Positions 16,912-30,821 of a stretch of DNA of 33,031 bases are shown here, piece by piece. The DNA is taken from contig DXCL01000006.1 of NCBI GenBank assembly GCA_019115995.1, positions 1-33,031 on the forward strand. Reading direction: 5' to 3'. The translations under genes and the position numbers were made by a program. The notes under the pieces are model-generated. The model was not told the origin of the DNA. It made no database searches and saw nothing but the letters and a program-made list of their open reading frames with translations. The number at the start of each line of letters is the position of its first letter. Position 1 is the stretch's first letter. The DNA comes from Candidatus Borkfalkia avistercoris. GTDB taxonomy: Bacteria; Bacillota; Clostridia; Christensenellales; Borkfalkiaceae.

Positions 16912-19512
16912 TCATTGCAGGGTAGGCTGTTTGCGCAAAAGCAGGTAACATACCGAAAGTATGACTGCCGCCGCCGCGACCATCACGATGACGAGCGTCA
17001 CCATAACGACGGGCGTCGCATTATAGAGTATGGAGGGGTCGATATAGCCCGCGTAGGTGCCGTTTTCGTTCGTGTATTCCGCATATACGTTGCCGTTTTC
17101 GTCCGTTAAGGAATCGTACACCTTTAACTGTTCCCGATCGGAAAGCGTAATGCCCTCGCCCGTGTTTTTGTGCAGGAGCGTCGCGCTCTCGCCGCGGTCG
17201 AGGCGGGCATAGCGGAATTGCGTGCCCGAAGCGACGCCCGCGTTGCCGCTCTTCAATACGAAGCCTGCGGGAACATAGCCGTATACGGTCTGTCCGTCGA
17301 GTTCTGCTTTCACGAAGCAATAATCCGCGTCGAGGGCGCCGTTGCCGATTTTCTGCAAAACCGTTACCGCCGTATTTTTGGGAAGCTCCTGTATACAGGC
17401 AAAGTCGGTAAAACTGCCGTTTTCGCCGAGGCGCATCTGCGGGAATCGGTACAGCCCGACCGCCTCCACGACGTAGCCGTCGGAATAATCGGGGGAGGAG
17501 AGATATCTGGCGCCGTCTACGGCGGTCACGCTGTCTTCGCCGCCGTCTTTCAAAACGAGCCATACGTTATAAGAGTAGAGCACATAGACTTCACCGCTCG
17601 GCGTTTTGGTAAAGACGCCCACGAGCGTGCCGTCGCCCGTTTCCGCAAGCACGACGCCCGTCATGGCTTCCGCCGTTTTTTGGTAGCCGTGATAGGGGAG
17701 AACTGCGGAATTCTGAGAGAGCTCCGTCACGTCCAGCGCGATGACTGCCGAACTCGGCGCAACGTTTACGAGCAGTCCGTTATAGTCGTCGGAGGAGAGC
17801 GGCGTATCGAACAGGGCGGCGTAAACGCCGTCTGCGTCGAGATCGTTCAGAGATTTTACGCCGAGCTTTTGCGTTACGGCGATAAATCCGTCGGACAGCA
17901 CGTACACGTCTTTGCTTTCAAAACCGAAGGCGAAAGAAACGGCGGAAGGCGTGTCGCTTCCGTAATATACGAGGCCGTTCAGGTCTTCCAGCGGCGTGAA
18001 TACCCGCTGCTGTGACCCGTCTTCGCGCAGAGAGAAGATGGAACCGCTCTGATCCAGTGCGTAGAGATTGCCCTCATAGTCGCACAAGATCTTTTTCGTG
18101 CCGGACGGTGCGGTATAAGTAGCCAAAGCCGTAAAATCACTGTCGTATTTCTGTACGGAGGTACCGCTCAATATATAAAGGTTGCCGTGTATATCCGCCG
18201 TTACGGAGGAGATCGCGGTATCGAGGTCGTGCTCCGTTGCCTGGCCGCTCGTCTCGTCTATCTCATACAGTATGCTCATGCCGCTTACCGCAACAAAGTA
18301 TTTTCCGTAAGAGTAAGCGATGCCGCCGATCGCCGCGCCGAAGTTCGTCTTGACCTCCGTATAAGAGTCGCCGTCATACGGATAAATGCGCAGAGAACGG
18401 TTGCTCGCCACGGCAAAAGTGTTTTCCTGCGCGCAGATGAGGGAGGGAGAAAAGTCTTCTGTTTTTATTTCTTTGTAGGTATAGCTGCCGTTCGCGCTCT
18501 TTTCGGCAAGGAGCACGCGCTCGTTGCCCGTATCGGCTACCGCGATGCGGCTGCCGCATACGGAAAGGTCGGAAGCATTCTGCCCGATGCGGTTGGCGAT
18601 GTCTGCATATTTGCCGATAGTGTAATCGAGGAAGGAATAACCTTCTGATGTAAAAGGATCGAGCAAGCGGATATTTTGGTTTTCTATGAACCAAAGCTCG
18701 TTGCCGACAAGTTTGACGGAAGGGACACCCGTGATCGGGTTCCCGTTATATTGCACGGTTTCCGATGTTTGGTTTTGATAGACCAAGAAATCTCGGTCGC
18801 TTCCCGTGGTGGAGTAAAATATTTTGTCGTCTGTTACCGAAAAAGCGGTTATGGAGGAGGAAACGCTGCGGTATTCCTGTGGTGCCCCGCTTTCCGTAAC
18901 AAGATAAACGCGGCTGTTTAAAGAAAAATAAAGTTCGCTGCCCGACATGGAAAAGTAGGGGGTTATGCTCGTCGTCGCGTCCTGTTCGATCGTTTCTCCT
19001 TCTGCAAGGGAGCTCAGCGACATGGCGGTTCGGTATACTACCGCTCCGCTCGTTGTGCGAGAGTAATACAGGGTTTCTCCCTGTATGATAAACGAAGCAC
19101 ATGTAAAGCTCAGCGGAGTGGAGGAAAATGTGTCGTCGTCGGCGCGCGAACCGCAGTCTATATAGTAAATATTCGTATTGCTGTCAACGAAAAGCAGGTA
19201 GCAAGAGCCGCCGCTTTCGTAAAAGTTCAGGGAACTTAAAGTGCTTGTGGACGTTGTATGGGTATACGTCGCGAAAACGCTTTCGTTCTTGTCGTATACA
19301 TATATGATACCGCCGTCCGCCACGGCAATGTATTGCTCGTTTACAGCAAAGTCAGAAGGATTTTCCAGAGAAAGATACTGTTCGTAGGACGAGGGCATGA
19401 AGAGGGCGGTGCCGCTTTCGTCGCCTTCCGCCGCGTATGCGGAAACGGCTCCCCAGCCGAGAGCGCAGATCGCCGCCGATATGATCAATAATGTGAAAAG
19501 CTTTTTTTTCAT
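16912..19512 (-). CDS. Secreted beta-propeller protein with C-terminal membrane anchor
   Basis: The 866-residue protein has a signal peptide (residues 1-27, cut near AYA-AEGDE). About 600 residues of repeated beta-strand units follow (for example IAVADGGIIYVYDKNE, IAVADTGNERVLLAEK, NLYALDQSGSIFSL), as expected for one or two WD/NHL-like beta-propellers. Two SH3-like segments follow (ending YGYVPAGFVLKS and YAGYIDPSILY), then one membrane helix at about 834-858 and a short basic tail. It should face outward, anchored at its C-terminus. There is no good Shine-Dalgarno, and a strong hairpin lies in the leader. It is not an enzyme I recognise. Its architecture resembles the smaller protein at 20336-21040. 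Confidence 0.8.
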   Translation of the reverse strand: MKKKLFTLLIISAAICALGWGAVSAYAAEGDESGTALFMPSSYEQYLSLENPSDFAVNEQYIAVADGGIIYVYDKNESVFATYTHTTSTSTLSSLNFYESGGSCYLLFVDSNTNIYYIDCGSRADDDTFSSTPLSFTCASFIIQGETLYYSRTTSGAVVYRTAMSLSSLAEGETIEQDATTSITPYFSMSGSELYFSLNSRVYLVTESGAPQEYRSVSSSITAFSVTDDKIFYSTTGSDRDFLVYQNQTSETVQYNGNPITGVPSVKLVGNELWFIENQNIRLLDPFTSEGYSFLDYTIGKYADIANRIGQNASDLSVCGSRIAVADTGNERVLLAEKSANGSYTYKEIKTEDFSPSLICAQENTFAVASNRSLRIYPYDGDSYTEVKTNFGAAIGGIAYSYGKYFVAVSGMSILYEIDETSGQATEHDLDTAISSVTADIHGNLYILSGTSVQKYDSDFTALATYTAPSGTKKILCDYEGNLYALDQSGSIFSLREDGSQQRVFTPLEDLNGLVYYGSDTPSAVSFAFGFESKDVYVLSDGFIAVTQKLGVKSLNDLDADGVYAALFDTPLSSDDYNGLLVNVAPSSAVIALDVTELSQNSAVLPYHGYQKTAEAMTGVVLAETGDGTLVGVFTKTPSGEVYVLYSYNVWLVLKDGGEDSVTAVDGARYLSSPDYSDGYVVEAVGLYRFPQMRLGENGSFTDFACIQELPKNTAVTVLQKIGNGALDADYCFVKAELDGQTVYGYVPAGFVLKSGNAGVASGTQFRYARLDRGESATLLHKNTGEGITLSDREQLKVYDSLTDENGNVYAEYTNENGTYAGYIDPSILYNATPVVMVTLVIVMVAAAAVILSVCYLLLRKQPTLQ

Positions 19513-19807: not shown

Positions 19808-20329
19808 TTGAAGGATTATCAAAAAATTTTACTGTATCTCTATCCGAAAATGGGACGGCTGATCCGCAGCGCGGGAGAGATCGCCTCGGCGCGCGCGATC
19901 GCTTCGGGCGGGGAGATAAGCACGGAGCGGTGCATCGAGAGGATCCTTGCGCTCATCGGGTTCAAAAACGCGCTCCTGTATGTTTCGGAGGAAATGGAAA
20001 TAATTTTTTCCGCGCTCGGCAGGGAGGAGCGCTATCTGCTCGAATACAAATATTTCCGGAGAAAAAGCAGGCTGGAAGGAGAATTTGCGGACATAAAAAT
20101 GGCGTGCTCCGAGCGCACCTATTTCCGCAGGCAAGCGCGGCTCGCGGCAAAGCTGAACGCGCTGTTCATGCGGGAAGGGCTCACCGAACAGTGGTTTGCG
20201 CGCACCCTGGGCGAATACCCTTACATAAGGCAAGCGCTCGAAAAGCTGAGGGAAGCGGGCGAATATTCCTTTACGGACAAGCGCGCCCGCTGTTCGCTCG
20301 CGAGGGAAGGGGCAAAAAGGGGCGCATGA
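19808..20329 (+). CDS. Sigma-region-4-like phage-type transcriptional regulator
   Basis: The 173-residue protein contains LGREERYLLEYKYFRRKS (about residues 70-87) followed by SERTYFRRQARLAAKLNALF. This is the layout of sigma-70 region 4-like late regulators found in prophages (RinA/ArpU/YqaJ-neighbour types), in which an acidic helix precedes an HTH. The N-terminal 60 residues carry no recognised domain. The start is a TTG at 19808; GGGGTG about seven bases upstream is the best available Shine-Dalgarno. It directly precedes the terminase cassette except for one inserted minus-strand gene, so it is a candidate activator of late genes. Its stop lies six bases from the stop of the converging gene, with no terminator between. 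Confidence 0.6.
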   Translation: MKDYQKILLYLYPKMGRLIRSAGEIASARAIASGGEISTERCIERILALIGFKNALLYVSEEMEIIFSALGREERYLLEYKYFRRKSRLEGEFADIKMACSERTYFRRQARLAAKLNALFMREGLTEQWFARTLGEYPYIRQALEKLREAGEYSFTDKRARCSLAREGAKRGA

Positions 20330-20335
20330 ACGCGC

Positions 20336-21040
20336 TCAGAACACGTCTTCCGTTTCGTCGTAGGCGGCAGGTTCCGTCCTGCGCGCCTTGGAGGGGCGGA
20401 ACAGAAAGTAAAGCGCGCCGAGCGCAGCCACCGCGAGCACGCAGATGAGCACCACGTTGAGCGCGCCGAAGCTCTGTTCGGCGGCGGGTTCCTCTTCCGC
20501 GGGCGGCGTTTCCTCTTCGGGGTGTTCGGTGTTTTCGGGGTAGTTTACGGCGGAGCACGCCGCAGCCGGCACGTAGCCGAACCGCCCCTCCATATTTACA
20601 TAGTAACAGGTCGCCGAACCGTACATGAATTCCCCGTAATAGGCGGCTTCCGCCTCGTATTCCGTAAAAAAGGAATCGGGCAGATCCATGCCGCCGTTGT
20701 CCGCGCGGAAGGTTACGGTAACGGTGTAGCTCAGGTAGGGCGTTTCGGGTATGTAGTTTACGGGCGTTACTTCGGAAGCCTTGCAATAGCCTTCCAGAGC
20801 GGCGCCTGCGTCTCCGTAGCTTACCTTATAAAAGTTTCCCGCCTCTCCCGTGATCTTTACGAAGTAGGTGCGAGGCAGGATAAACAGCCCCGCGCTCTCG
20901 TCTGCATAGCGGTAAAAATAAACGCCTTCCTGCGTGACGCGCGCGTAGCTCTCCGCCTCGGCTTCGGCAAAGGCGGTCAGGGAGGGCAGGCACCCGGCAA
21001 AGAGCAGGGCGGTCAAAACGAATATCGATAATTTTTTCAT
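20336..21040 (-). CDS. Secreted SH3-like protein with C-terminal membrane anchor
   Basis: The 234-residue protein has a signal peptide (residues 1-26, likely cut at AFA-EAEAES; LFAGC is a poor lipobox alternative). Two SH3-like segments follow (FVKITGEAGNFYKVSYGDAGAALEGYCKASEV and YYVNMEGRFGYVPAAACS). A Pro/Glu-rich spacer (HPEEETPPAEEEPAAEQ) leads to one membrane helix at about 191-212 and an acidic cytoplasmic tail. GAGGAG precedes the ATG. It is transcribed against the phage-type genes that flank it, so it is either a moron-like insertion or part of the same system. The architecture, including the GYVPA turn, recalls the end of the 866-residue protein at 16912-19512. Function unknown. Confidence 0.75.
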   Translation of the reverse strand: MKKLSIFVLTALLFAGCLPSLTAFAEAEAESYARVTQEGVYFYRYADESAGLFILPRTYFVKITGEAGNFYKVSYGDAGAALEGYCKASEVTPVNYIPETPYLSYTVTVTFRADNGGMDLPDSFFTEYEAEAAYYGEFMYGSATCYYVNMEGRFGYVPAAACSAVNYPENTEHPEEETPPAEEEPAAEQSFGALNVVLICVLAVAALGALYFLFRPSKARRTEPAAYDETEDVF

Positions 21041-21130
21041 GGTTCGCTCCTCATTAACGGAGCTTTATTGTACCGCCGCGCGGCGCGCGCCTGAGGGGAA
21101 AAAGGAGGGGATATACACTTATTTTGTCAT

Positions 21131-22573
21131 ATGCATGAAAACGAAATCATTGCAAAGCTCTTGGAAATAGAGCGGGAGGAGGAACGCCGCGCGCGGAAGG
21201 GCCCCTTGGCGCTCTACAATACGGGCAGAAAAAAGCATAAAAAGCAGATCGCCTTTCACAAGTGCAAAAAGCGCAACCGCTGGGTATTCGGCGGGAATCG
21301 GAGCGGAAAAACGGAATGCGGGGCGGCGGAATGCGTTTATATGGCGCGCGGCGTGCACCCGTACCGCAGGAATAAAGACGGCGTTTTCGGCTGGGTCGTT
21401 TCCCTCTCTCAGCAGGTGCAGCGAGATGTCGCGCAGAAAAAGATCCTGCACTATCTCGACCCTTCCTGGATCGAAGACGTTACCATGCTCTCGGGCAGGA
21501 AAGACGCCCCCGCGTCCGGCATTATCGACCAGATCCGCGTGCGCAACGTGTTCGGCGGCGTTTCCGTCATCGGCTTCAAAAGCTGCGACCAGGGGCGGGA
21601 AAAGTTCCAGGGCAGTTCGCTCGACTTCGTATGGTTCGACGAGGAACCGCCCCGCGACGTATACGAGGAATGCCGCATGCGCGTGCTCGACAGGCGCGGA
21701 GATATTTTCGGCACGATGACGCCGCTCAAAGGCATCACGTTCCTCTTTGACGAGATCTATATGAACAGGGGCAACGACCCCGAGGTCTGGTACGAATTCA
21801 TGGAATGGGAAGACAACCCGTTTCTCGATAAAAAGGAGATCGCGCGCATGAGCGCGGCGCTCGGGGAAAAGCAGCTGGAAAGCAGGCGCTTCGGCAGGTT
21901 TTGCGTAAACGAGGGACTCGTGTACCCGGAATTTGACGAACGCGTGCACGTGATCCCGCCCTTTTCCGTTCCGTTCGGGTGGCAGGATACGATCTCCATA
22001 GATCCCGGGCTGAACAATCCGCTGTCCGCGCACTGGTATGCGGTGGACTACGACGGCAACGTGTACGTGGTCGCGGAACATTACGAGGCGCGGCGCGACG
22101 TCGATCACCACGCCGCGCGCATCAAAGAGATCTCCGAGGAGCTCGGCTGGCATACGGACGGGAAGGGAAGGCTGTGCGCGCTCATCGATCCCGCGGCGAA
22201 CCAAAGGACGCTCGCGAGCGCGAAGAGCGTGAGCGAGCTGTTTTACGAGAGAGACATTCTCGTGAACACAAACGTGAACAAAGATATTTTTGCGGGCGTG
22301 GCGCGGGTCAAAAGCTATCTCATCGGGGAGGGCGGAAAGCCGAAGCTGTACATATTTTCCGGCTGCGTGAACATGATACGCGAGATCAAGGGGTATTTTT
22401 GGGGAGAGGGCGACCTGCCCAAAAAGCGCGACGATCACGCGATGGACGAGCTCAGATACTACCTGATGACCAAACCCCGTCGCGACCCGCCCGCGCGGGA
22501 GGTCTCTCCCGTTTTGCGGGACAAGCAAAGGCTCATGCGCAGGCAGTCGCGCAGGGGAGGCTACGGTGAATGA
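21131..22573 (+). CDS. terL: Phage terminase large subunit
   Basis: The 480-residue DNA-packaging motor has an N-terminal ATPase with Walker A GGNRSGKT (54-61), Walker B VWFDEE (167-172) and coupling motif GTMTP (194-198). Its C-terminal RNase H-like nuclease shows D291 (SIDPG), D353 (LIDPA) and D435/D439 (DDHAMDE). All the key residues are present, so it appears functional. Length is close to P22 gp2 (499 residues). The ATG at 21131 has no Shine-Dalgarno close by; an AGGAGGGG at 21104-21110 is too far (about 20 bases) unless the leader folds. It overlaps the next gene by eight bases and heads the head-gene block. Confidence 0.92.
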   Translation: MHENEIIAKLLEIEREEERRARKGPLALYNTGRKKHKKQIAFHKCKKRNRWVFGGNRSGKTECGAAECVYMARGVHPYRRNKDGVFGWVVSLSQQVQRDVAQKKILHYLDPSWIEDVTMLSGRKDAPASGIIDQIRVRNVFGGVSVIGFKSCDQGREKFQGSSLDFVWFDEEPPRDVYEECRMRVLDRRGDIFGTMTPLKGITFLFDEIYMNRGNDPEVWYEFMEWEDNPFLDKKEIARMSAALGEKQLESRRFGRFCVNEGLVYPEFDERVHVIPPFSVPFGWQDTISIDPGLNNPLSAHWYAVDYDGNVYVVAEHYEARRDVDHHAARIKEISEELGWHTDGKGRLCALIDPAANQRTLASAKSVSELFYERDILVNTNVNKDIFAGVARVKSYLIGEGGKPKLYIFSGCVNMIREIKGYFWGEGDLPKKRDDHAMDELRYYLMTKPRRDPPAREVSPVLRDKQRLMRRQSRRGGYGE

Positions 22574-22826
22574 CGGCGTAAAGGAGGCGCTCCGCCGCCG
22601 TGCGCTCGGTTTCGAGGCGGAGGAAGTGGTGGAGGAATACGCCTTTCAGGAAGGGGAAGCGGTACTCCTCAAACGGAAGGTTACCAAAAAGACGGTGCCG
22701 CCGGACGTGGCGGCGGCAAAGCTGCTCTCGGAGGAAGAAAAGCCGCTCGCGGCGCTCACGCCCCGGGAGTTGCAGGAGCAAAAAGCAAGGCTTCTCGCGC
22801 TGTTGCGGGAAGGGGAGGAAAAATGA
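22566..22826 (+). CDS. Small phage protein, possible terminase small-subunit relative
   Basis: This 86-residue charged protein starts at GTG 22566, inside the end of terL, and ends by ATGA overlap with the portal gene. The segment KRKVTKKTVPPDVAAAKLL recalls a P-P-D-x-A block seen in some small packaging proteins of Clostridia prophages, but the usual following W-R-D motif is missing. No domain can be assigned firmly. Coupling on both sides shows that it is a real gene made with the packaging proteins. No other small-terminase candidate is visible. Confidence 0.55.
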   Translation: MNDGVKEALRRRALGFEAEEVVEEYAFQEGEAVLLKRKVTKKTVPPDVAAAKLLSEEEKPLAALTPRELQEQKARLLALLREGEEK

Positions 22827-24718
22827 AGGACAGGCAGGAGGGCGCCCTTTCGGGCGCGCAGAACAGGGCGGCAGAGCGCATCGTGCGCGAGGTGAAGGAA
22901 GACTTTTCGAAAAGGCAGGCGGAACGCAGGCTGATCGAGCGCGGGTGGGAGCTTTCCATGAACTTTCTGGCGGGCAATCAGTATTGCGGCATAAACCCGG
23001 CAGGAGAGCTGGAAGAGGAGGAACCGCGCTACGCGTGGCAGTACAGGAGGGTGTTCAATCACATCGCGCCCGTCGTCGATACGCGCTGCGCAAAGCTCGC
23101 GTCTATGCGGCCCGCGCTCACGGTACGCGCGGCGAGCGATCAGGAAAGCGACCTGCGCACGGCGAAAATTTCGGCAAACGTGCTCAAAGCCGTGTGCGAA
23201 GAAAACGGCTTCGACGGCGTGATAGACAAGGCGACCGTTTGGAGCGAAACGTGCGGCACCGCCTTTTACAAGGTGCTTTGGGACGGCGGCGCGGGCAGAA
23301 AGATCGGCGAACGCGGCGGGGAGAACGTCTACGAGGGCGGCGTGCGCATCGCCGCCGTATCGCCCTTCGAGATCTATCCCGAAAATCTCGGCGCGGAAGG
23401 CATAGAGGAGCAGGAAAGCATCGTGCACGCACGGGCGATGCACGTTTCGGAGATCGAACGGCTTTACGGGGTTCGGCTCGCGGGCAGGGAGATACGCGGC
23501 TCTTCCTTTGCGCCCGTATCCGCTTCCGTCCATTTTGCGGGCGGGGCGGGCATGCGCGCGGAGAACGTGATCAAAGACGCGGAGCTGGTCATAGAGCGCT
23601 ACGAGCGGCCGTCAAAGGGGCTGCCCGAAGGCAGGCTGACGGTCGTGGCGGGAGACGCGCTCGTATACGACGGCCCGCTCCCGTATAAAAACGGGGCGGG
23701 AGGCGCCCGCGCGTTCCCTTTCGTAAAGCAGTGCGCCATCGAGCTTTCGGGCAGCTTTTTCGGCGGGAGCATCGTAGACAGGCTGATCCCCGTGCAGCGG
23801 GCGTACAACGCCGTAAAAAACAGGAAACACGAATTTTTAAATCGGCTCACGATGGGCGTCCTCGCGGTGGAAGACGGCTCCGTAGACACGGAGGAACTCG
23901 TCGAGGAGGGGCTCGCTCCCGGCAAGGTGCTCGTTTACCGCCAGGGTTCCGCGGCTCCGCAGATGCTCGGCGCAGACGCGCTCCCTTCCGACTTTTGCGA
24001 GGAGGAGGAAAAGCTGTTGGACGAGTTCACGTTGGTGAGCGGCGTCAGCGAGATCAGCTCCTCCTCCGCAAACGGAACGCGCATCACGAGCGCGACGGGG
24101 TTGCAGCTGCTCATCGATCTCGACGATACCCGCCTCGCCGTAACGCGCGGCAGCATCGCGCGGGCGGTAAAGGAGGCGGGCAGGCAGGCGCTGCGGCTGA
24201 TGCGGGAATTTGCGGGTGCGGGCAGGCTGATGCGCATGACGGGCGAAGGGGGCAAGGTGGAAATGTTCTACTTTGCGTCCAGCGACATCTCCTCCGACGA
24301 CGTCGTGTTCGAGGCGGAGAGCGCAAATGCGAATACGCCTGCGGAAAACAGGTCTCTCTTGTACGAGATCTACAACATGGGGCTCTTGTCGGGCGAAGAC
24401 GGAAAAGTCAGCTCGGATACGAAAAGGAGAGTTCTGAACGCGCTGGGCTTCGGCGGCTTGCAGAACGCGCGCGGGCTAGAACAGCTGCATTGCGACAAGG
24501 CGGCGGAGGAAAATCTGCGCCTTGCGAAGGAAGACGTTGCCGCCGACGGATACGACGACCACGCCCTGCACATTGCGGAGCATATACGCTATCTTTTGTC
24601 GGGCGAGTTCAAAAAATGCGGCGCCGGCGCCAAAGAGCGCTTTGAAAGGCATATTTCCCTGCACAGGGAGGCGCTCGCCGCGGCGGAAACGGCGGATAAA
24701 AAAGATAAGGAGAATTGA
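22823..24718 (+). CDS. Phage portal protein (P22-like)
   Basis: The portal is the dodecameric ring at one capsid vertex through which DNA enters and leaves. The 631-residue protein begins with a charged helical region, then MNFLAGNQYCG, YAWQYRRVFNHIAPVVDTRCAKLASMRPALTV and VIDKATVWSETCGTAFYKVLWD, which together match P22-type portals. Later YERPSKGLPEGRLTVV, AYNAVKNRKHEFLNRLTMGVLAVEDG and EISSSSANGTRITSATGLQLLIDLDD fit the stem/wing region. Size is within the family range (P22 gp1 has 725). The C-terminal 80 residues are helical and charged. It is coupled to the small protein before it and followed closely by the scaffold gene. Confidence 0.88.
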   Translation: MKDRQEGALSGAQNRAAERIVREVKEDFSKRQAERRLIERGWELSMNFLAGNQYCGINPAGELEEEEPRYAWQYRRVFNHIAPVVDTRCAKLASMRPALTVRAASDQESDLRTAKISANVLKAVCEENGFDGVIDKATVWSETCGTAFYKVLWDGGAGRKIGERGGENVYEGGVRIAAVSPFEIYPENLGAEGIEEQESIVHARAMHVSEIERLYGVRLAGREIRGSSFAPVSASVHFAGGAGMRAENVIKDAELVIERYERPSKGLPEGRLTVVAGDALVYDGPLPYKNGAGGARAFPFVKQCAIELSGSFFGGSIVDRLIPVQRAYNAVKNRKHEFLNRLTMGVLAVEDGSVDTEELVEEGLAPGKVLVYRQGSAAPQMLGADALPSDFCEEEEKLLDEFTLVSGVSEISSSSANGTRITSATGLQLLIDLDDTRLAVTRGSIARAVKEAGRQALRLMREFAGAGRLMRMTGEGGKVEMFYFASSDISSDDVVFEAESANANTPAENRSLLYEIYNMGLLSGEDGKVSSDTKRRVLNALGFGGLQNARGLEQLHCDKAAEENLRLAKEDVAADGYDDHALHIAEHIRYLLSGEFKKCGAGAKERFERHISLHREALAAAETADKKDKEN

Positions 24719-24720
24719 AC

Positions 24721-25194
24721 ATGGAAGAAAGGAAGGATAACATGGACGCTGCGCGCGAAGCGGCGCAGGGGGCGGACGCCCGAAGCGGAGAAGGCGCGGC
24801 GGCTGGCGCGGATCTCGGAAAGTTCAAGAGCGTAGATGCCCTTCTGAACGCGTACAGCTCGCTCGAAGCGGAGTTTACCCGCCGCAGCCAACGCCTCAGA
24901 GAGCTGGAAGCGCGGGTGCGGAACAACGGGAACGCCGCGGCGGACGAAAACGATCGGCCGGCCGCCGCGCGTGAAAGCTCGGCATCCGTCAAAGAGCCCG
25001 AAAGGGCACAGGCGGGGGAGGTGTCCGACGAGGTAAAACATGCCGTCATCGCCGAGTACCTCTCGTCCGTTGCAAACGGCGCGCCCTTCATCATGGCGGG
25101 CGGCGGAACGCATGCTTCCGCGCCCGAGAGAAAGGCGCGCACCATCGAGGAGGCGGGCGCGCTCGCGGCGCACCTTTTCAAGGATAAGCCGTAA
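24721..25194 (+). CDS. Putative capsid scaffolding protein
   Basis: The 157-residue protein is highly charged, with a predicted coiled coil in FKSVDALLNAYSSLEAEFTRRSQRLRELEARVRNN (about 33-67), an Ala/Glu-rich low-complexity middle and a C-terminal VKHAVIAEYLSSVANGAPFIMAGGG segment. This composition and the place between portal and coat are typical of scaffolding proteins. AAGGAG stands seven bases before the ATG at 24721; a TTG at 24715 is less likely. It is short compared with P22 gp8 (303 residues). The assignment rests mainly on position and composition. Confidence 0.72.
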   Translation: MEERKDNMDAAREAAQGADARSGEGAAAGADLGKFKSVDALLNAYSSLEAEFTRRSQRLRELEARVRNNGNAAADENDRPAAARESSASVKEPERAQAGEVSDEVKHAVIAEYLSSVANGAPFIMAGGGTHASAPERKARTIEEAGALAAHLFKDKP

Positions 25195-25242
25195 CGCGGG
25201 CGCTCCCGCAAAAATATTTATCGAAAGGAGCAAAAAAACAGA

Positions 25243-26406
25243 ATGGTAACAATGACCAGCGCGGACAACGCGCTCAAAAGCGTATACCTCGGCGTCGTTT
25301 CCGATCAGCTGAATACGGCGGCAAACCCGCTTCTGGCCGCGATCAGGCAGTCTACGGCGGACGTGTGGGGCAAAGAGGTGAGAAGGCTCGCCCGCTACGG
25401 CGTGAACGGCGGCGTGGGCGCGGGTACGGAGGAGGGGGATCTCCCCGCTTCCGCGGGCAACAATTACGAGCAGTTCGTGACCACCCTCAAAAATCTGTAC
25501 GGCACCATCGAGATCAGCGATAAGGCCGTGCGCGCCTCCGAAAACAACGTCGGCGCGTTCGTCAATCTGCTGAATGCGGAGATGGACGGGCTCGTAAGAT
25601 CTTCTTCCTTCAATTTCGGGCGCATGCTCTTCGGCGACGGGAGCGGCGTGCTCACTACCGTTTCCGCGGTTTCGGGCACGACTGTTACCGCGGCGAGCGT
25701 CAAAAACCTGATCGAGGGAATGGTCGTCGATTTTATCTCGGCCGATACCGCCGTTACGGGCGCTACGGGCAGAAGGATCACTTCGGTGGACAGAGACAAT
25801 AAAACGTTCACCGTTTCGGGGGCCACTTTAACGGGCGTCGCCAAAGACGACAAGGTGTGCGTGCAGGGCTCGTATAATCTGGAACTCACGGGGCTCGGCG
25901 CGATCTTTAAGACGACGGGCACCATTTACGGGCTCGACCGCGCCACGCATAAATGGATGATCCCGTATATCAAAACGAGCGTCGGCGCGATCACCGAAAC
26001 CGCCATACAGACGGCGATCGACCGTTTGGAGGAAACGGCGGGCAGCCGCGTCAACTTTATCGTGTGCAGCTGGGGCGTAAAGCGCGCCCTGCAAAAGCTC
26101 TTCGGGGAGAATAAGCGCAATATCGACGTTACGGAGCTTGCGGGCGGCTACCGCACCATCACGTATAACGGGATCCCCGTCGTCGCGGACAGGTTCTGCC
26201 CGGACGGGACGATGTATCTGCTCAACACGGAAGACTTTTGCCTGCACCAGCTCTGCGACTGGAAGTGGCTGGAAGGCGACGACGGCAGGGTGCTCAAACA
26301 GGTCGCGGGCAAACCCGTCTATACGGCGACGCTCGTCAAATATGCCGATCTCATCTGCACCCGCCCCTGCGGGCAGGCGATGCTCTCCGGCATAACCGAA
26401 GCGTAA
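25243..26406 (+). CDS. Major capsid (coat) protein
   Basis: The 387-residue protein begins with TSADNALKSVYLGVVSDQLNTAANPLLAAI and continues EQFVTTLKNLYGTIEISDKAVRAS, the usual N-arm/E-loop opening of HK97-fold coat proteins in Clostridia phages. Residues about 138-215 (VSAVSGTTVTAASVKNLIEGMVVDF through DDKVCVQGS) form a beta-rich insertion like the I-domain of P22-type coats. SRVNFIVCSWGVKRALQKLF and the late YNGIPVVADRFCPDGTMYLLNTEDF match the conserved P-domain end. AAGGAG precedes the start. A strong terminator follows, so coat mRNA can exceed that of downstream genes. Confidence 0.88.
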   Translation: MVTMTSADNALKSVYLGVVSDQLNTAANPLLAAIRQSTADVWGKEVRRLARYGVNGGVGAGTEEGDLPASAGNNYEQFVTTLKNLYGTIEISDKAVRASENNVGAFVNLLNAEMDGLVRSSSFNFGRMLFGDGSGVLTTVSAVSGTTVTAASVKNLIEGMVVDFISADTAVTGATGRRITSVDRDNKTFTVSGATLTGVAKDDKVCVQGSYNLELTGLGAIFKTTGTIYGLDRATHKWMIPYIKTSVGAITETAIQTAIDRLEETAGSRVNFIVCSWGVKRALQKLFGENKRNIDVTELAGGYRTITYNGIPVVADRFCPDGTMYLLNTEDFCLHQLCDWKWLEGDDGRVLKQVAGKPVYTATLVKYADLICTRPCGQAMLSGITEA

Positions 26407-26418
26407 GAGGAACGCGGG

Positions 26419-26449
26419 AACGCCCCGCCCCGTGCGGCGGGGCGTTTTT
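26419..26449 (+). terminator. Terminator after the coat gene
   Basis: CGCCCCGCC (26421-26429) pairs with GGCGGGGCG (26436-26444) over a 6-base loop, extended by AA/TT and followed by five Ts. Terminators directly after the coat gene are common in phages and set protein ratios by partial read-through. Confidence 0.88.
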
Positions 26450-26482
26450 GCGGCGCGGGCGGTCGCCCGCAAAGGAGGAAGG

Positions 26483-27031
26483 GTGAAGGTTCAAAAGATC
26501 ATGGCGTGCGCCGCGGCGCTCGTCGGCAGGCGGGATCTGTGCGATTATCTGGAAGGAAAGGGCGGCGCCGATTCCGACGGGCTCCGCCGCGACGCGGAGC
26601 AGATGCTGCGGTGCTTCAACCTCGCGGAAAACGAGGTCGCGCTCGATTTTATTCCCCTGAAAAAGGAGCAAAAGGTCAGTTCTGACGGCGTGATCCCGTT
26701 TTCTGCGCTCGCATGGGCGCCCGTCGAGGTGGAGGGGGTGTTTTCTCCCGCGGGCGGGCGGCTGCATTTCAGGGTGACGGAAGAGGGGATAGCCGTGCGG
26801 AGCGGGGAGGCTCTCGTGCGTTACCGCGCCCGTCCCGCCGTAAAGTGCGCGTGCGACGAAGCGGATTTCGAAGGGGGAGAGCGATTTCTCGCGCTCGGAA
26901 CGGCGTGCGAATTCGCGCTGATGGAGGGCATGCTCGACCGTGCCGCCGAGCTGGACGCGCGCTATAAAGACGCGCTCGCCGCCGCTGCCCGCAGCCGCGG
27001 CGGGCGCATGCGGCAAAGGCGGTGGATATGA
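26483..27031 (+). CDS. Phage head-neck connector-type protein
   Basis: The 182-residue protein starts at GTG 26483 with GGAGG four bases upstream. It has helical N-terminal residues (KIMACAAALVGRRDLCDYLEG ... DAEQMLRCFNLAENEVA), a beta-rich middle (SSDGVIPFSALAWAPVEVEGVFSPAGGRLHFRV ... ALVRYRARPA) and a helical end (FLALGTACEFALMEGMLDRAAELDARYKDALAAAARS). This layout recurs in proteins placed after the coat gene in Clostridia prophages. Its position corresponds to P22 gp4, the tail accessory factor (166 residues), although gp4 is helical throughout, so true homology is uncertain. The stop overlaps the next start (ATGA). Confidence 0.6.
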   Translation: MKVQKIMACAAALVGRRDLCDYLEGKGGADSDGLRRDAEQMLRCFNLAENEVALDFIPLKKEQKVSSDGVIPFSALAWAPVEVEGVFSPAGGRLHFRVTEEGIAVRSGEALVRYRARPAVKCACDEADFEGGERFLALGTACEFALMEGMLDRAAELDARYKDALAAAARSRGGRMRQRRWI

Positions 27032-28320
27032 TGCGGGCAGACAAGAGGCGCTTTGAAAAAGCGGGCTCCCTGCACTACGCGGCGTGCGATCTGTCCGCGG
27101 GCGTGCGCGCGGGTTTTACGCTGCAAAACGGGGCGTTGGCGCACGCGGCCGCGGGCGAGTACGTCGGCAGCGGGGGGAGGTTCGCATTGCCTGCCGGCTG
27201 CGTGCCCGAAGCGCTGTATTTTCTCCGTTCGAACGCCTTTTGCGCGGCTGCGTACGCGGCGGGCAAACTGTATTTTTGCGCGGGAGACGGCGGCGCCTTT
27301 GCCGAAGTGCCCGACGTGGCTTTGACGAGGGCGCCCGTCGGCGTACGCGTTTACGACGGCGGCGAGGCGCTCGTGCTTTCCGACGGCGTGAGCGTGTGCG
27401 AGCTTACGGCGGAAGGGGTCGCTGCGTGCGAAGGCGTTGCGCCCTTTGTGTGCGCGGGTTACGCGTACGAACGGCTCTGGATCTGTACGGACGGCTTCCG
27501 CGTACGGTTCTCCGCGCTCAGAGATGTACACGACTTTGAATCGGGCGGATATATCGATTTTCCCGACGGCAAAGGGGAGATCCTCGCGTTTGCCGATCTG
27601 AATAACGCGTTTTACCTGTTCAGGCGCTTCGGTATCCAAAAACTGATCGCCAAGGGCACGGAAGACGAATTCGCCCTCTCCGATGTGCCGTCGCCCGCAG
27701 CCGAAATATACGGCGCCGTCTGTACGGAAAACGGAAAGGCGTATTTTCTCGCCGAAGGGGGCCTGTATTCCTTCGACGGCCGCGCCTCCGCGCCGCTCTG
27801 TCCGGATTTTCGGCCTGCGATCGCCCCGCGTGGAGAGCGCGGCGCGCAGATGGCGGCGTGCCGCGGGCGGATATATCTTTCGGCGCGCTTCGGAAAAGAG
27901 GAGGGCGTCGGCGTGTTTCGCGAAGACGGGTCGGAAGGATACGTGCTCTTGTACGGCGGGGGCGCGCTTGTCGCCGCGGATTTGCCTGCGGGCAGAAGGG
28001 TGCTTTTTTGTAAAGACGGGCAGTTTTTGGAGCTTCGCGGGGAAAAGGGCGCGGCGCCCGCGCTCTGGGAGTCTGTGCCGGCGGCGCCCTTCGGCGGCAG
28101 GGAAGGCGTGCTCGAAGAGGTCGTTTTTTCGGCGGAAGGCTCCTTTTCCGTTTCCGTGAGGAGCGAGTACGGTGAAAGGCGTTTCGAAGTCGTTTCGGAG
28201 GGCGGAACAAAGCGGTTCCGCGCGTCGCTGCGGGGCAGTGAATTTACTTTTACCGTTCTTTCGAAAGGCGATGCGGGGCGCGCGTTTGCATTGGCGGCGG
28301 GGTATTCCCGCCGCGCGTAA
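27028..28320 (+). CDS. Beta-propeller-like virion plug protein (P22 gp10-like position)
   Basis: The 430-residue protein is almost entirely beta strands in repeated units, such as GALAHAAAGEYVGSGGRFALPAGC, GKLYFCAGDGGAFAEVP, EALVLSDGVSVCELT, NAFYLFRRFGIQKLIAKG, GKAYFLAEGGLYSFDGRASAPL and GRIYLSARFGKEEGVGVF. This fits a five- to seven-bladed propeller followed by a beta-sandwich tail (residues about 375-430). P22 gp10, the packaged-DNA stabilising hub, has similar length (472), shape class and gene position. The ATG at 27028 overlaps the previous stop; GTG 27022 and ATG 27031 are alternatives. No enzymatic motif is seen. Confidence 0.65.
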   Translation: MMRADKRRFEKAGSLHYAACDLSAGVRAGFTLQNGALAHAAAGEYVGSGGRFALPAGCVPEALYFLRSNAFCAAAYAAGKLYFCAGDGGAFAEVPDVALTRAPVGVRVYDGGEALVLSDGVSVCELTAEGVAACEGVAPFVCAGYAYERLWICTDGFRVRFSALRDVHDFESGGYIDFPDGKGEILAFADLNNAFYLFRRFGIQKLIAKGTEDEFALSDVPSPAAEIYGAVCTENGKAYFLAEGGLYSFDGRASAPLCPDFRPAIAPRGERGAQMAACRGRIYLSARFGKEEGVGVFREDGSEGYVLLYGGGALVAADLPAGRRVLFCKDGQFLELRGEKGAAPALWESVPAAPFGGREGVLEEVVFSAEGSFSVSVRSEYGERRFEVVSEGGTKRFRASLRGSEFTFTVLSKGDAGRAFALAAGYSRRA

Positions 28321-28329
28321 GGAGGAGGA

Positions 28330-28806
28330 ATGACGCAGGAAGAGATCGAAAGGGCGGCTGAGCGGCTCATCAAAGAAGCAAACCGCAAGAGCACGGTAAA
28401 AAAGCGGCAATACGAGGAGGAGTGTTATGCGGAGGAGTGCAGGGCGGCCGAGCGCAGGGCGGCGCGGTCGAGCATACTGGAAAATATACTCGGCAGGCTG
28501 AAAACGGAGTTTGACGACGCCGTGGCGCTCATTCAGAGCGAGCTCGACGAAAAGTTGGAGGAGCTGTACGAGAAGGGAGACGGCGGCTCGGGCGGGGGGA
28601 GCGATCCCGGCGGAGGCGAAGACGCGCCTTACGAGGTGGATTATTCTCTGCCCATGCGCGAGCGTTACATCACGGTGCGCGATTATTATCTCGCTTATGA
28701 AGATAAGCAACAGGCGCTTGCGGATTTTCGCGAGGACGAGATCGCGCAGGACTATCTCGGTTCCTATTATAACTATGTATTGCAGCTTCTCATGACGATG
28801 GTATAA
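28330..28806 (+). CDS. Coiled-coil phage-type protein (needle-like candidate)
   Basis: The 158-residue protein has a long charged helix, probably a coiled coil, over residues 1-85 (including ARSSILENILGRLKTEFDDAVALIQSELDEKLEELYEKG). A Gly/Ser/Asp linker follows (GDGGSGGGSDPGGGED), then a C-terminal domain rich in Tyr and helical residues (RERYITVRDYYLAYEDKQQALADF ... YYNYVLQLL). TAAGGAGGAGG places its Shine-Dalgarno on the previous stop codon. It is the last gene of the cassette before a terminator. The position and coiled coil recall the P22 gp26 tail needle (233 residues), but there is no sequence motif to confirm this. Confidence 0.6.
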   Translation: MTQEEIERAAERLIKEANRKSTVKKRQYEEECYAEECRAAERRAARSSILENILGRLKTEFDDAVALIQSELDEKLEELYEKGDGGSGGGSDPGGGEDAPYEVDYSLPMRERYITVRDYYLAYEDKQQALADFREDEIAQDYLGSYYNYVLQLLMTMV

Positions 28807-28812
28807 AAAGGG

Positions 28813-28840
28813 AGGCGGGCGCGCGTGCGCCCGCCTTTTT
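28813..28840 (+). terminator. Terminator of the phage-type cassette
   Basis: AGGCGGGCGC (28813-28822) pairs with GCGCCCGCCT (28827-28836) over GCGT, with T-runs after it. It marks the right edge of the cassette. Confidence 0.88.
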
Positions 28841-29849: not shown

Positions 29850-30821
29850 GTGCTTTTTAAGAATGCGTTTCATCTTCTCGTAGACAATTTTTCTCTCAAC
29901 TATAAATATCTTTTGTATAAGATCATCGTCTGCGTGATCGCCGTCGGTCTTGCCGCTGCGCTCATCGTGCCGAACGTGGCGTTCCTCTTCAACAGTGCGG
30001 AGTTCAAATCGCTGATCGATCTCATCAAAGATTTTCTCCGTGCGCTCGTTTCGGGCGACGTCGAATTTCTGAACGGCTTTCCTTCCGCAATCAAAGAATG
30101 CGTGCAGGCGCTCGGCGATCTGATCGTATCCCGTACGGGCAGGTTCGTTTTTGTGTTCGTCGCCGCGATCGTCGTTATTCTCGTCTATCGCTTTTTGAGC
30201 GGCATGGGAAATTTCGTTTTCGGCGGGCTGATCGACGATAAAATGTCGAGCTACGCAAAGACCTCTTTTTCGTCTTCGTATATCAAAAATCTTGGCAGAG
30301 CAGCACTGTGGCAGATCATTTATGTGCCCGTTACGTTCGTTTACGACGTCGCCGTGCTCGCCATATGCTATGTATTCTTTTTGGTGCTTTTGAACGTCAT
30401 TTCCTTTGCGCTTTTGGCAACGAGCGCGGCGCTCATGCTCTCCATCGCGCTGTTTCTGGCGGCACAGGCAGTCAAACTTACCGTGTTCAACAGCATGGTG
30501 CCCGCCATGGTGAGCGAAAAGCAAAAGGTATCCGCGGCGTTCAGAACGGGCTTTTCTCACTGCAAAAAACATTTCGGCTCCCTGTTTTCCACCTATCTGG
30601 TCACCTCACTCATCATTTTGTGTCTGAGCGTAGGGGGGAGCATTTGCTCGTTCGGCGCGTCGCTCCTTTTAACGATCCCCATGTCTTTTATGATGCTCAT
30701 CTGCATTCAATTCGTGGCGTTTTACACTTTTTCCGGCAAAAAATATTTTCTCGCGGAGGACAAGATCGTTCTTCCAAAAAATAACGAGTCGGAAGACTTT
30801 TACGATAAATTCGATCTGTAA
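29850..30821 (+). CDS. Polytopic membrane protein, possible paralogue of the preceding gene
   Basis: The 323-residue protein has about six membrane segments (near 24-46, 100-120, 150-190, 192-215, 250-275 and 278-300) and a charged tail ending NESEDFYDKFDL. It starts at GTG 29850, with AGGAGG seven bases upstream. The gap to the preceding gene is 15 bases, so they form an operon. The segment MVPAMVSEKQKVSAAFRTGFSHCKKHF between helices resembles the cytoplasmic loop of the glycerophosphodiester-phosphodiesterase-associated/DUF975-like membrane families, but I cannot assign it. Function unknown. Confidence 0.7.
   Translation: MLFKNAFHLLVDNFSLNYKYLLYKIIVCVIAVGLAAALIVPNVAFLFNSAEFKSLIDLIKDFLRALVSGDVEFLNGFPSAIKECVQALGDLIVSRTGRFVFVFVAAIVVILVYRFLSGMGNFVFGGLIDDKMSSYAKTSFSSSYIKNLGRAALWQIIYVPVTFVYDVAVLAICYVFFLVLLNVISFALLATSAALMLSIALFLAAQAVKLTVFNSMVPAMVSEKQKVSAAFRTGFSHCKKHFGSLFSTYLVTSLIILCLSVGGSICSFGASLLLTIPMSFMMLICIQFVAFYTFSGKKYFLAEDKIVLPKNNESEDFYDKFDL

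Follow-up and report, generated by a model that had tools for sequence, protein, structure and literature searches.

Genes and signals of the cassette

The DNA analysed here, called the window, is one whole contig (DXCL01000006.1; G000:C35, 33,031 bases) of a 1.77 Mb draft genome of Candidatus Borkfalkia avistercoris, order Christensenellales, that is 88.6% complete. Positions 19808-28806 hold a phage-type cassette in which a regulator, large terminase (TerL), small protein, portal, scaffold, coat, adaptor, nozzle and coiled-coil protein are present as open frames, with a terminator-like hairpin after them. An initial annotation had listed these genes; all of them were found, TerL, portal and coat with clear family matches, and one gene that it had overlooked lies on the opposite strand between the regulator and TerL. 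Features are on the forward strand unless stated, and families of the order are referred to by codes (f1 and so on).

TerL (21131..22573) matches Terminase_6N in Pfam (1.5e-10), PHROG_2 (1.7e-27) and the PDB entry 5oe8 (1.5e-15). Its residues G54-G59-K60-T61, D170 E171, D291, D353, D435 and D439, which we take to be the Walker A, Walker B and nuclease acidic residues, are invariant across 29 aligned sequences, so the ATPase and nuclease residues are indeed intact, as the annotation had proposed. The 86-aa product of the following gene (SMALL, 22566..22826) is a candidate small-terminase-like protein: its residues 5-54 weakly match the C-terminal part of PHROG_309, a terminase small subunit (9e-5). 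The portal (22823..24718) is of the P22/SU10 type (P22_portal 5.4e-17; PHROG_156 1.5e-37), and its profile matched the GP4 portal in the PDB at 4e-4. By its position, the 159-aa protein encoded at 24715..25194 (SCAF) is a putative scaffold; it has no convincing family match in Pfam or PHROG, and its uncut relatives in f1 and other families measure 103-328 aa. The coat, or major capsid protein (25243..26406), is SU10-like by family match (PHROG_14242 5.3e-62; SU10_MCP 5.3e-7).

The two genes downstream were identified through structure. NECK (26483..27031) has no sequence-family match and PLUG (27022..28320) just a weak one in PHROG (E 0.31); AlphaFold models of both are confident, with a predicted local distance difference test (pLDDT) of 91.9 and 92.9, respectively. 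All eight Foldseek matches of NECK at E <= 0.001 are phage tail or connector proteins (SU10, LME-1, KHP30 and others); SU10-type adaptors score 1e-4, followed by GP4 (3e-3) and T7 gp11 (2e-2). For PLUG, the top 26 Foldseek matches are podophage or crAss-like tail proteins (9nwi, 7e-17), and the P22 tail complex (8u10) is matched at 1.6e-13 with a TM-score of 0.70. When its profile was compared with the PDB by sequence, the GP4 tail protein 8jov came first (4.3e-8), eukaryotic propellers next (2e-5). The neck protein and beta-propeller-like plug of the annotation are thus assigned as a podophage-type tail adaptor and tail nozzle. As phage tail adaptors and nozzles head the PDB matches of the two, the cassette is predicted to encode a head with a short tail stub, not a capsid alone.

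A terminator-like hairpin between coat and adaptor (26426..26444) overlaps the longest possible adaptor start, the open frame beginning at 26432; on account of this hairpin, the true start probably lies nearer 26483. The hairpin may lower transcription of the tail genes. The last gene, COIL (28330..28806), encodes a coiled-coil protein, a short form of a DUF7934-type protein: its longer relative in locus L066 matches DUF7934 at 4.8e-23, and the likeness to P22 gp26 first proposed was not borne out. The cassette is closed, as predicted, by a strong terminator-like hairpin (28809..28840; 14 pairs and a T tail).

At the left end, REG (19808..20329) is a putative transcription regulator of helix-turn-helix or sigma-like type, with weak PHROG matches (E 0.13-0.5). 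The overlooked gene, SH3tm (20336..21040, reverse strand), encodes an exported protein whose signal peptide, SH3-like region and C-terminal transmembrane (TM) segment were all assigned by eye. Synteny gave the idea that SH3tm is a cassette part; its profile matched all 25 coat-bearing genomes and also 14 of 24 genomes without a proper coat, eight of these 14 below 1e-15. Because coatless genomes still match, we class it as a neighbour and not strictly as part of the particle.

Left of the cassette lie genes for FeoB, a pseudouridine synthase, Fe-ADH, a TIM-barrel protein, PGI, a two-component pair, a GntR regulator and an ABC protein; to its right are phosphoglucomutase (PGM) and two multi-TM proteins. 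No flank gene with a Pfam match is of phage kind (seven likely flank genes have no such match), which agrees with the ordinary chromosomal surroundings described initially. One conserved neighbour (16912..19512, reverse strand) encodes an exported 866-aa protein with a C-terminal TM segment, beta-propeller-like by eye. Its profile is matched in 17 of 21 family loci, and the gene is retained at L321, L322 and L323, where the cassette is lost or cut; it is probably a host surface protein, outside the particle.

The annotation had also stressed what the region lacks. Among the 29 window proteins scanned with Pfam and PHROG, a scan confined to the window, we found no integrase, repressor or replication family, nor was a tail-spike or lysis gene recognised in the window; tRNA and RNA-family searches of the window returned none. 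As for flanking direct repeats, none around the cassette is long or exact, and short, imperfect ones are present. The host-like base composition held in one respect: the third-position GC of cassette genes (0.68-0.79) is close to that of eight other window genes (0.65-0.75), which agrees with long residence. It did not hold for overall GC, which is 61.5% over 21131-28806 vs 55.3% and 50.7% in the flanks.

Spread, descent and selection

The portal was found in 37 of 40 genomes of the window's genus and the coat, mostly in single copy, in 371 of 398 genomes of its family, covering 18 of 18 genera; among family genomes at least 90% complete and at most 5% contaminated the count is 187 of 197. Presence in one strain, which had been named as grounds to reject a host-kept module, is the opposite of what is seen. 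Thirteen of the 371 coat-positive genomes have two matches each, mostly with weaker scores. In a sample of the order, the coat occurs in 237 of 396 genomes, 72 of 142 genera and 18 of 33 family codes (f1, f3, f6, f8, f10, f13, f14, f16, f18, f19, f20, f24, f26, f28, f29, f30, f32 and f33). A sample of the class gave 26 of 391 genomes, 14 within the order and 12 outside. In GTDB contigs, 485 stretches encode a relative, with Candidatus Borkfalkia, Heteroclostridium and Fimimonas among the matches listed; 80 of these loci were examined. None of the portal matches listed for the genus, nor of the coat matches listed for the family, contains a stop; two listed order-sample matches and one class-sample remnant have one each.

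Some absences are assembly gaps, as a portal piece was found in four of 28 genomes whose coat or portal is missing, incomplete or degraded. Seven loci from genomes without a proper coat comprise five with TerL cut at one site, one in which everything from TerL to the coiled coil is gone (G025) and one internal-deletion remnant (G420).

Synteny profiles built from family loci were compared with 21 loci of the family (one a 5.5 kb contig) and 17 loci of 12 other families. The order found is REG, SH3tm (reversed), TerL, small protein, portal, scaffold, coat, adaptor, nozzle and coiled coil. Within the family, scaffold, coat, adaptor and nozzle are matched at all 21 loci, TerL, small protein, portal and coiled coil at 20, REG and SH3tm at 18. 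In the other families, coat, portal, scaffold, small protein, adaptor and nozzle are matched at all 17, the coiled coil at 16, an adjacent TerL at 15, SH3tm at 13 and REG at 11; the small-protein match precedes TerL in two. Gene order is thus largely kept over loci of 13 families, with neighbours common to several genera, and the comparison of synteny suggested with the annotation favours its reading.

FastTree phylogenies were built for 27 genomes; 30 had been sought for RpoB, and three were dropped (G243 and G264 gave none, G457 pieces only). Distances from joined TerL, portal and coat correlate with those from RpoB (Mantel r 0.69, 0 of 5000 permutations as high), and the two trees have 12 of 24 splits in common, where shuffles average 0.27 with a maximum of 3. 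Taken singly, TerL (r 0.64), portal (0.53), coat (0.73) and adaptor (0.44) also follow RpoB, each with 0 of 2000 permutations as high. Descent, as judged from these trees, appears to be mostly vertical, with the chromosome.

In f28, whose genomes span 0.8-1.4 Mb, 11 genomes carry a single TerL each, one copy having an internal stop. Both coordinates are available for ten: TerL is separated from the coat by 22-103 kb, or placed on a different contig, in eight of them and close to it in two. Such unlinking is hard to square with a phage. The dispersed genes were seen in f28; in the window's family, TerL is matched by profile at 20 of 21 cassette loci.

Relatives among phages bear on one alternative, that very common prophages or capsid-forming phage satellites re-enter these genomes repeatedly. 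The coat alignment found 39 loci in IMG/VR, the portal alone nothing there; coat or portal relatives also sit in prophage-like regions of other orders (L285, L286, L290 and L293), and both facts suit repeated entry. Sixteen phage records hold a coat relative, none above 29.7% identity; the nearest, about 25-30% identical, are from Arthrobacter phage Jasmine, Microbacterium phage Shocker and others. Against repeated entry stand the mostly single copy, the constant gene order and common neighbours, the joint tree that tracks RpoB, the unlinked TerL of most f28 genomes and the want of integrase, repressor and replication families in the window scan. We regard this alternative as most improbable.

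Selection was estimated by the ratio of nonsynonymous to synonymous substitution rates (dN/dS; Nei-Gojobori, NG86, own script) for the window and 27 genus-like loci, on pairs with dS of 0.05-1.5. Median values are 0.146 for TerL (161 pairs), 0.245 for portal (236 pairs) and 0.150 for coat (306 pairs), followed by 0.341 for adaptor (201 pairs), 0.402 for scaffold (308 pairs) and 0.587 for nozzle (103 pairs), the last being relaxed. Among neighbours, PGM stands at 0.089 (83 pairs), u29850 at 0.258 (37), u29016 at 0.331 (39) and the propeller protein at 0.523 (20). TerL, coat and portal are under purifying selection. The relaxed selection and frequent frameshifts that would have told against a host-kept module are not what these genes display.

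Cassettes of other families carry more. Of 18 loci from other families, 10 have a BhlA-type holin (example PF10960, 2.3e-10) and 9 a phage-type holin (example phrog_297, 1.1e-8), placed at the end of the cassette; both holin families are absent from all 21 family loci and from the 80 GTDB loci. Three of three other-family genomes, picked for their holin-bearing cassettes, show one of each genome-wide. Between nozzle and coiled coil, some lineages have a gene for 280-800 aa, one family of such genes occurring in 6 of 21 family and 3 of 18 other loci; an IMG/VR gene in this position matches a tail-protein PHROG at 1.7e-32. The holins, a small head protein (c11) and a fibre-like gene of other lineages are missing in the window, whose lineage seems to carry a reduced form of the cassette.

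These missing genes, together with the lost or broken copies in some genomes, could be taken for a decaying head module retained by chance. Coat presence in 371 of 398 family genomes, the dN/dS of 0.15-0.25 for TerL, coat and portal and the kept catalytic residues of TerL make decay very unlikely. The initial choice of a host-kept capsid module over a decaying prophage is supported by spread, dN/dS, gene order and all trees except that of the nozzle.

Variant loci were noted along the way. An f33 genome on a single contig (L223; G429:C1:2218466) has two TerL and two coat matches, perhaps with a second, unlinked partial copy. In G485 (f28; L296:8035-10379), two coat genes stand in tandem within the cassette, possibly for two capsid subunits. 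In f76, a family of another order, the coat occurs in 5 of 5 genomes, and a separate module (L292:5785-10514, L294:3378-8151, L295:6238-10994) consists of scaffold, coat, small head protein and adaptor-like and nozzle-like genes; it adjoins a serC-like gene, named by eye, without adjacent TerL or portal. Coat and scaffold alone are found among housekeeping genes in G1093 (f107; L289:9511-11550), again near a serC-like gene.

Foreign elements in terL and coat

Five genomes of two genera have TerL interrupted at residue 277/278, the break being in an identical register down to the base: G169 and G194 of genus g4, and G071, G105 and G106 of genus g3 (loci L322:33-881, L323:9800-10642, L324:5607-6578, L325:30-989 and L326:48-887). 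The foreign ends at this site are related, with the motif AAAAGTCTAA; 44 bases are identical between G106 and G169, from different genera, and 50 between G071 and G105. Four of the cut contigs end within about 50-530 bases, and one runs into a defence island. The insert of G071 carries a DNA methyltransferase and Thoeris genes and replaces the stretch from TerL residue 278 to about coat residue 331. A search of IMG/VR with the exact 21-base element end gave no match.

In G190 (f1) and G623 (f3) the coat breaks off at codon 378-382 and is joined to the same 53 foreign bases, and the contigs of G207 (f1) and G647 (f19) end within a base of that cut point. Loci cut or ending in the coat, from f1, f3 and f19 genomes and IMG/VR contigs, are L335, L337, L336, L338, L181:6472 and L196:5519. 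The coat is cut at this site on IMG/VR contigs as well: L181/L191 hold one element, a tailed phage with type I restriction genes and then a phage primase, terminase, portal and protease, and L196 has a methyltransferase.

Two further sites were seen in TerL. In G009, of the window's genus (G009:C44; L100:800-3994), the DNA before TerL residue 440 is foreign and encodes two tandem tyrosine recombinases (PF00589, 3e-24 and 1e-28) and a small protein, perhaps an excisionase. On IMG/VR locus L187:1-6260, amidase-, head-decoration- and tail-like phage genes are followed by TerL from residue 173, possibly the right end of a prophage inside the cassette. A recombinase was seen in G009 only; a phage contig of 54,951 bases, covered to base 30,046, showed no integrase within that part. 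We had taken the shared end motif as a possible mark of Tn7-like transposons, an idea dropped because one element proved to be a phage, with genes for terminase, portal and protease, and tyrosine recombinases were found in another.

That genomes lacking a coat were singled out for inspection is part of the reason why the cuts came to light. Elements are known to insert in comK, comYC and comM, and Croucher et al. (2016; PMC4774983) read insertions in competence genes as a way for the element to avoid being removed by recombination; searching that text for gene transfer agents (GTAs) gave no mention. By analogy, we tentatively suggest that prophages and integrative elements could have evolved independently to enter exact codons of terL (~173, 278 and 440) and coat (~378), stopping DNA exchange by the host and protecting themselves from loss by recombination. 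Alternatively, integrases may simply favour conserved, dispensable genes. If the targeting is true, it would be the first sign, by the literature searched, of mobile elements targeting a GTA, and indirect evidence that the particle exchanges DNA; looking for elements inside GTA genes brought up the Faecalibacterium report discussed below and a paper on a Wolbachia phage. The insertions are the most surprising part of this analysis and the least proven in meaning.

A predicted podovirus-type particle and its known counterparts

Altogether, the cassette is a real, old, host-inherited locus for a podovirus-type particle. Its predicted products (scaffold, coat, portal, TerL motor, adaptor and nozzle) are those of a short-tailed particle filled with DNA. 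We consider it likely that this is the head-and-neck locus of a podovirus-derived GTA that has been passed on with the chromosome and probably predates the divergence of many families of the order. The features by which a GTA is recognised point this way: the particle genes appear to derive from a tailed phage and to be transmitted vertically (nozzle tree and some deep branches excepted) under purifying selection (nozzle relaxed), with no replication or integration genes seen alongside among the 29 window proteins.

We propose the following course for such a particle, which would package, release and transfer DNA. The regulator would switch the operon on in some cells, and coat and scaffold would assemble on the portal into a procapsid. 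TerL would fill the head with chromosomal DNA by headful, starting at no specific site, and adaptor and nozzle would then close it. Particles would exit by cell lysis, in several other families through the two holins at the cassette end; as the two holin families were not found in the window's family, release there must take another route. The DNA load would finally recombine in a recipient. Delivery is the least certain of these steps, since no receptor-binding protein is recognised in the window's cassette.

That gap is one of several points that weigh against a GTA. The particle, its packaged DNA and the transfer are all predicted from sequence. PF10960 and phrog_297, just these two holin families being sought, are found genome-wide in none of 15 draft genomes of the window's family. 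The coat is lacking from 159 of the 396 order genomes, and the cassette is lost or broken in some that are nearly complete. The nozzle tree departs from that of the host (Mantel r 0.15, a value reached in 255 of 2000 permutations). Trees of TerL, adaptor or nozzle taken singly do not recover f1 as one clade, and the coat tree does so with weak support (0.49). The deep branches f19, f28, f30 and f33 conflict between the joint tree and RpoB. From the nozzle and deep-branch conflicts, some exchange or poor resolution is possible.

The same want of holins and of a recognised receptor-binding protein would suit a host-kept particle with another use, such as a DNA-filled killing particle or a shell for host cargo; a PBSX-like role is left open for their own particle by the authors of the Faecalibacterium GTA (FpGTA; PMC12946183). 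A DNA-free shell would have no need of the TerL motor and nuclease, whose residues are invariant in 29 sequences and whose dN/dS is low, and portal, adaptor and nozzle are retained as well. We judge another use unlikely, and a GTA remains our preferred explanation.

If it is true, much of an order of gut bacteria, common and for the most part uncultured, inherits a machine that packs its own DNA, and an old podovirus-type lineage could be added to GTA biology. The cassette could name the genes behind the GTA-like packaging reported for Christensenellaceae in human faeces, and the terL and coat insertions could allow gene exchange as a purge of mobile elements to be tested outside natural transformation.

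With the podoviruses P22, SU10 and GP4, the cassette shares the portal family, the adaptor and nozzle folds and the gene order of the head module; it differs from a P22-like temperate prophage in that integrase, repressor, replication, lysis and tail-spike genes go unrecognised in the window. Capsid-forming phage-inducible chromosomal islands (cf-PICIs) are satellites that carry an integrase and a primase, whereas neither was found beside the capsid genes among the 29 window proteins. RcGTA is siphovirus-like and has a full tail; the cassette here is podovirus-like, with adaptor and nozzle. RcGTA and its relatives (Rhodogtaviriformidae) nonetheless resemble it in vertical inheritance, in genes dispersed in some lineages and in the conservation of TerL and coat (PMC9662315).

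The closest counterpart is FpGTA (Borodovich et al. 2026; PMC12946183). As reported there, FpGTA I is a 10.5 kb, ten-gene TerS-TerL-portal-scaffold-MCP (major capsid protein) operon, and the particles measure about 40 nm and hold about 9 kb of DNA. Compared by gene classes and length, both systems have about 10 kb and ten genes, with TerS-like protein, TerL, portal, scaffold, coat and short-tail proteins; both belong to gut Clostridia, come without replication genes and are near-universal in the host genus. FpGTA II, with fibre, receptor-binding protein, holin and endolysin, lies elsewhere in the genome, its holin not found by its authors in all strains, whereas here holins stand within the cassette of several other families. 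The same report assigns 3 of 25 events of GTA-like packaging to Christensenellaceae and names no operon for them. It was the sole work joining GTAs with Christensenellales or Christensenellaceae, and none was found joining Borkfalkia with prophages, in a search outside which most subscription journals and bioRxiv preprints lay. FpGTA was reported in one genus and the cassette described here is order-wide; it is best read as an order-wide podovirus-type GTA comparable to that of Faecalibacterium.

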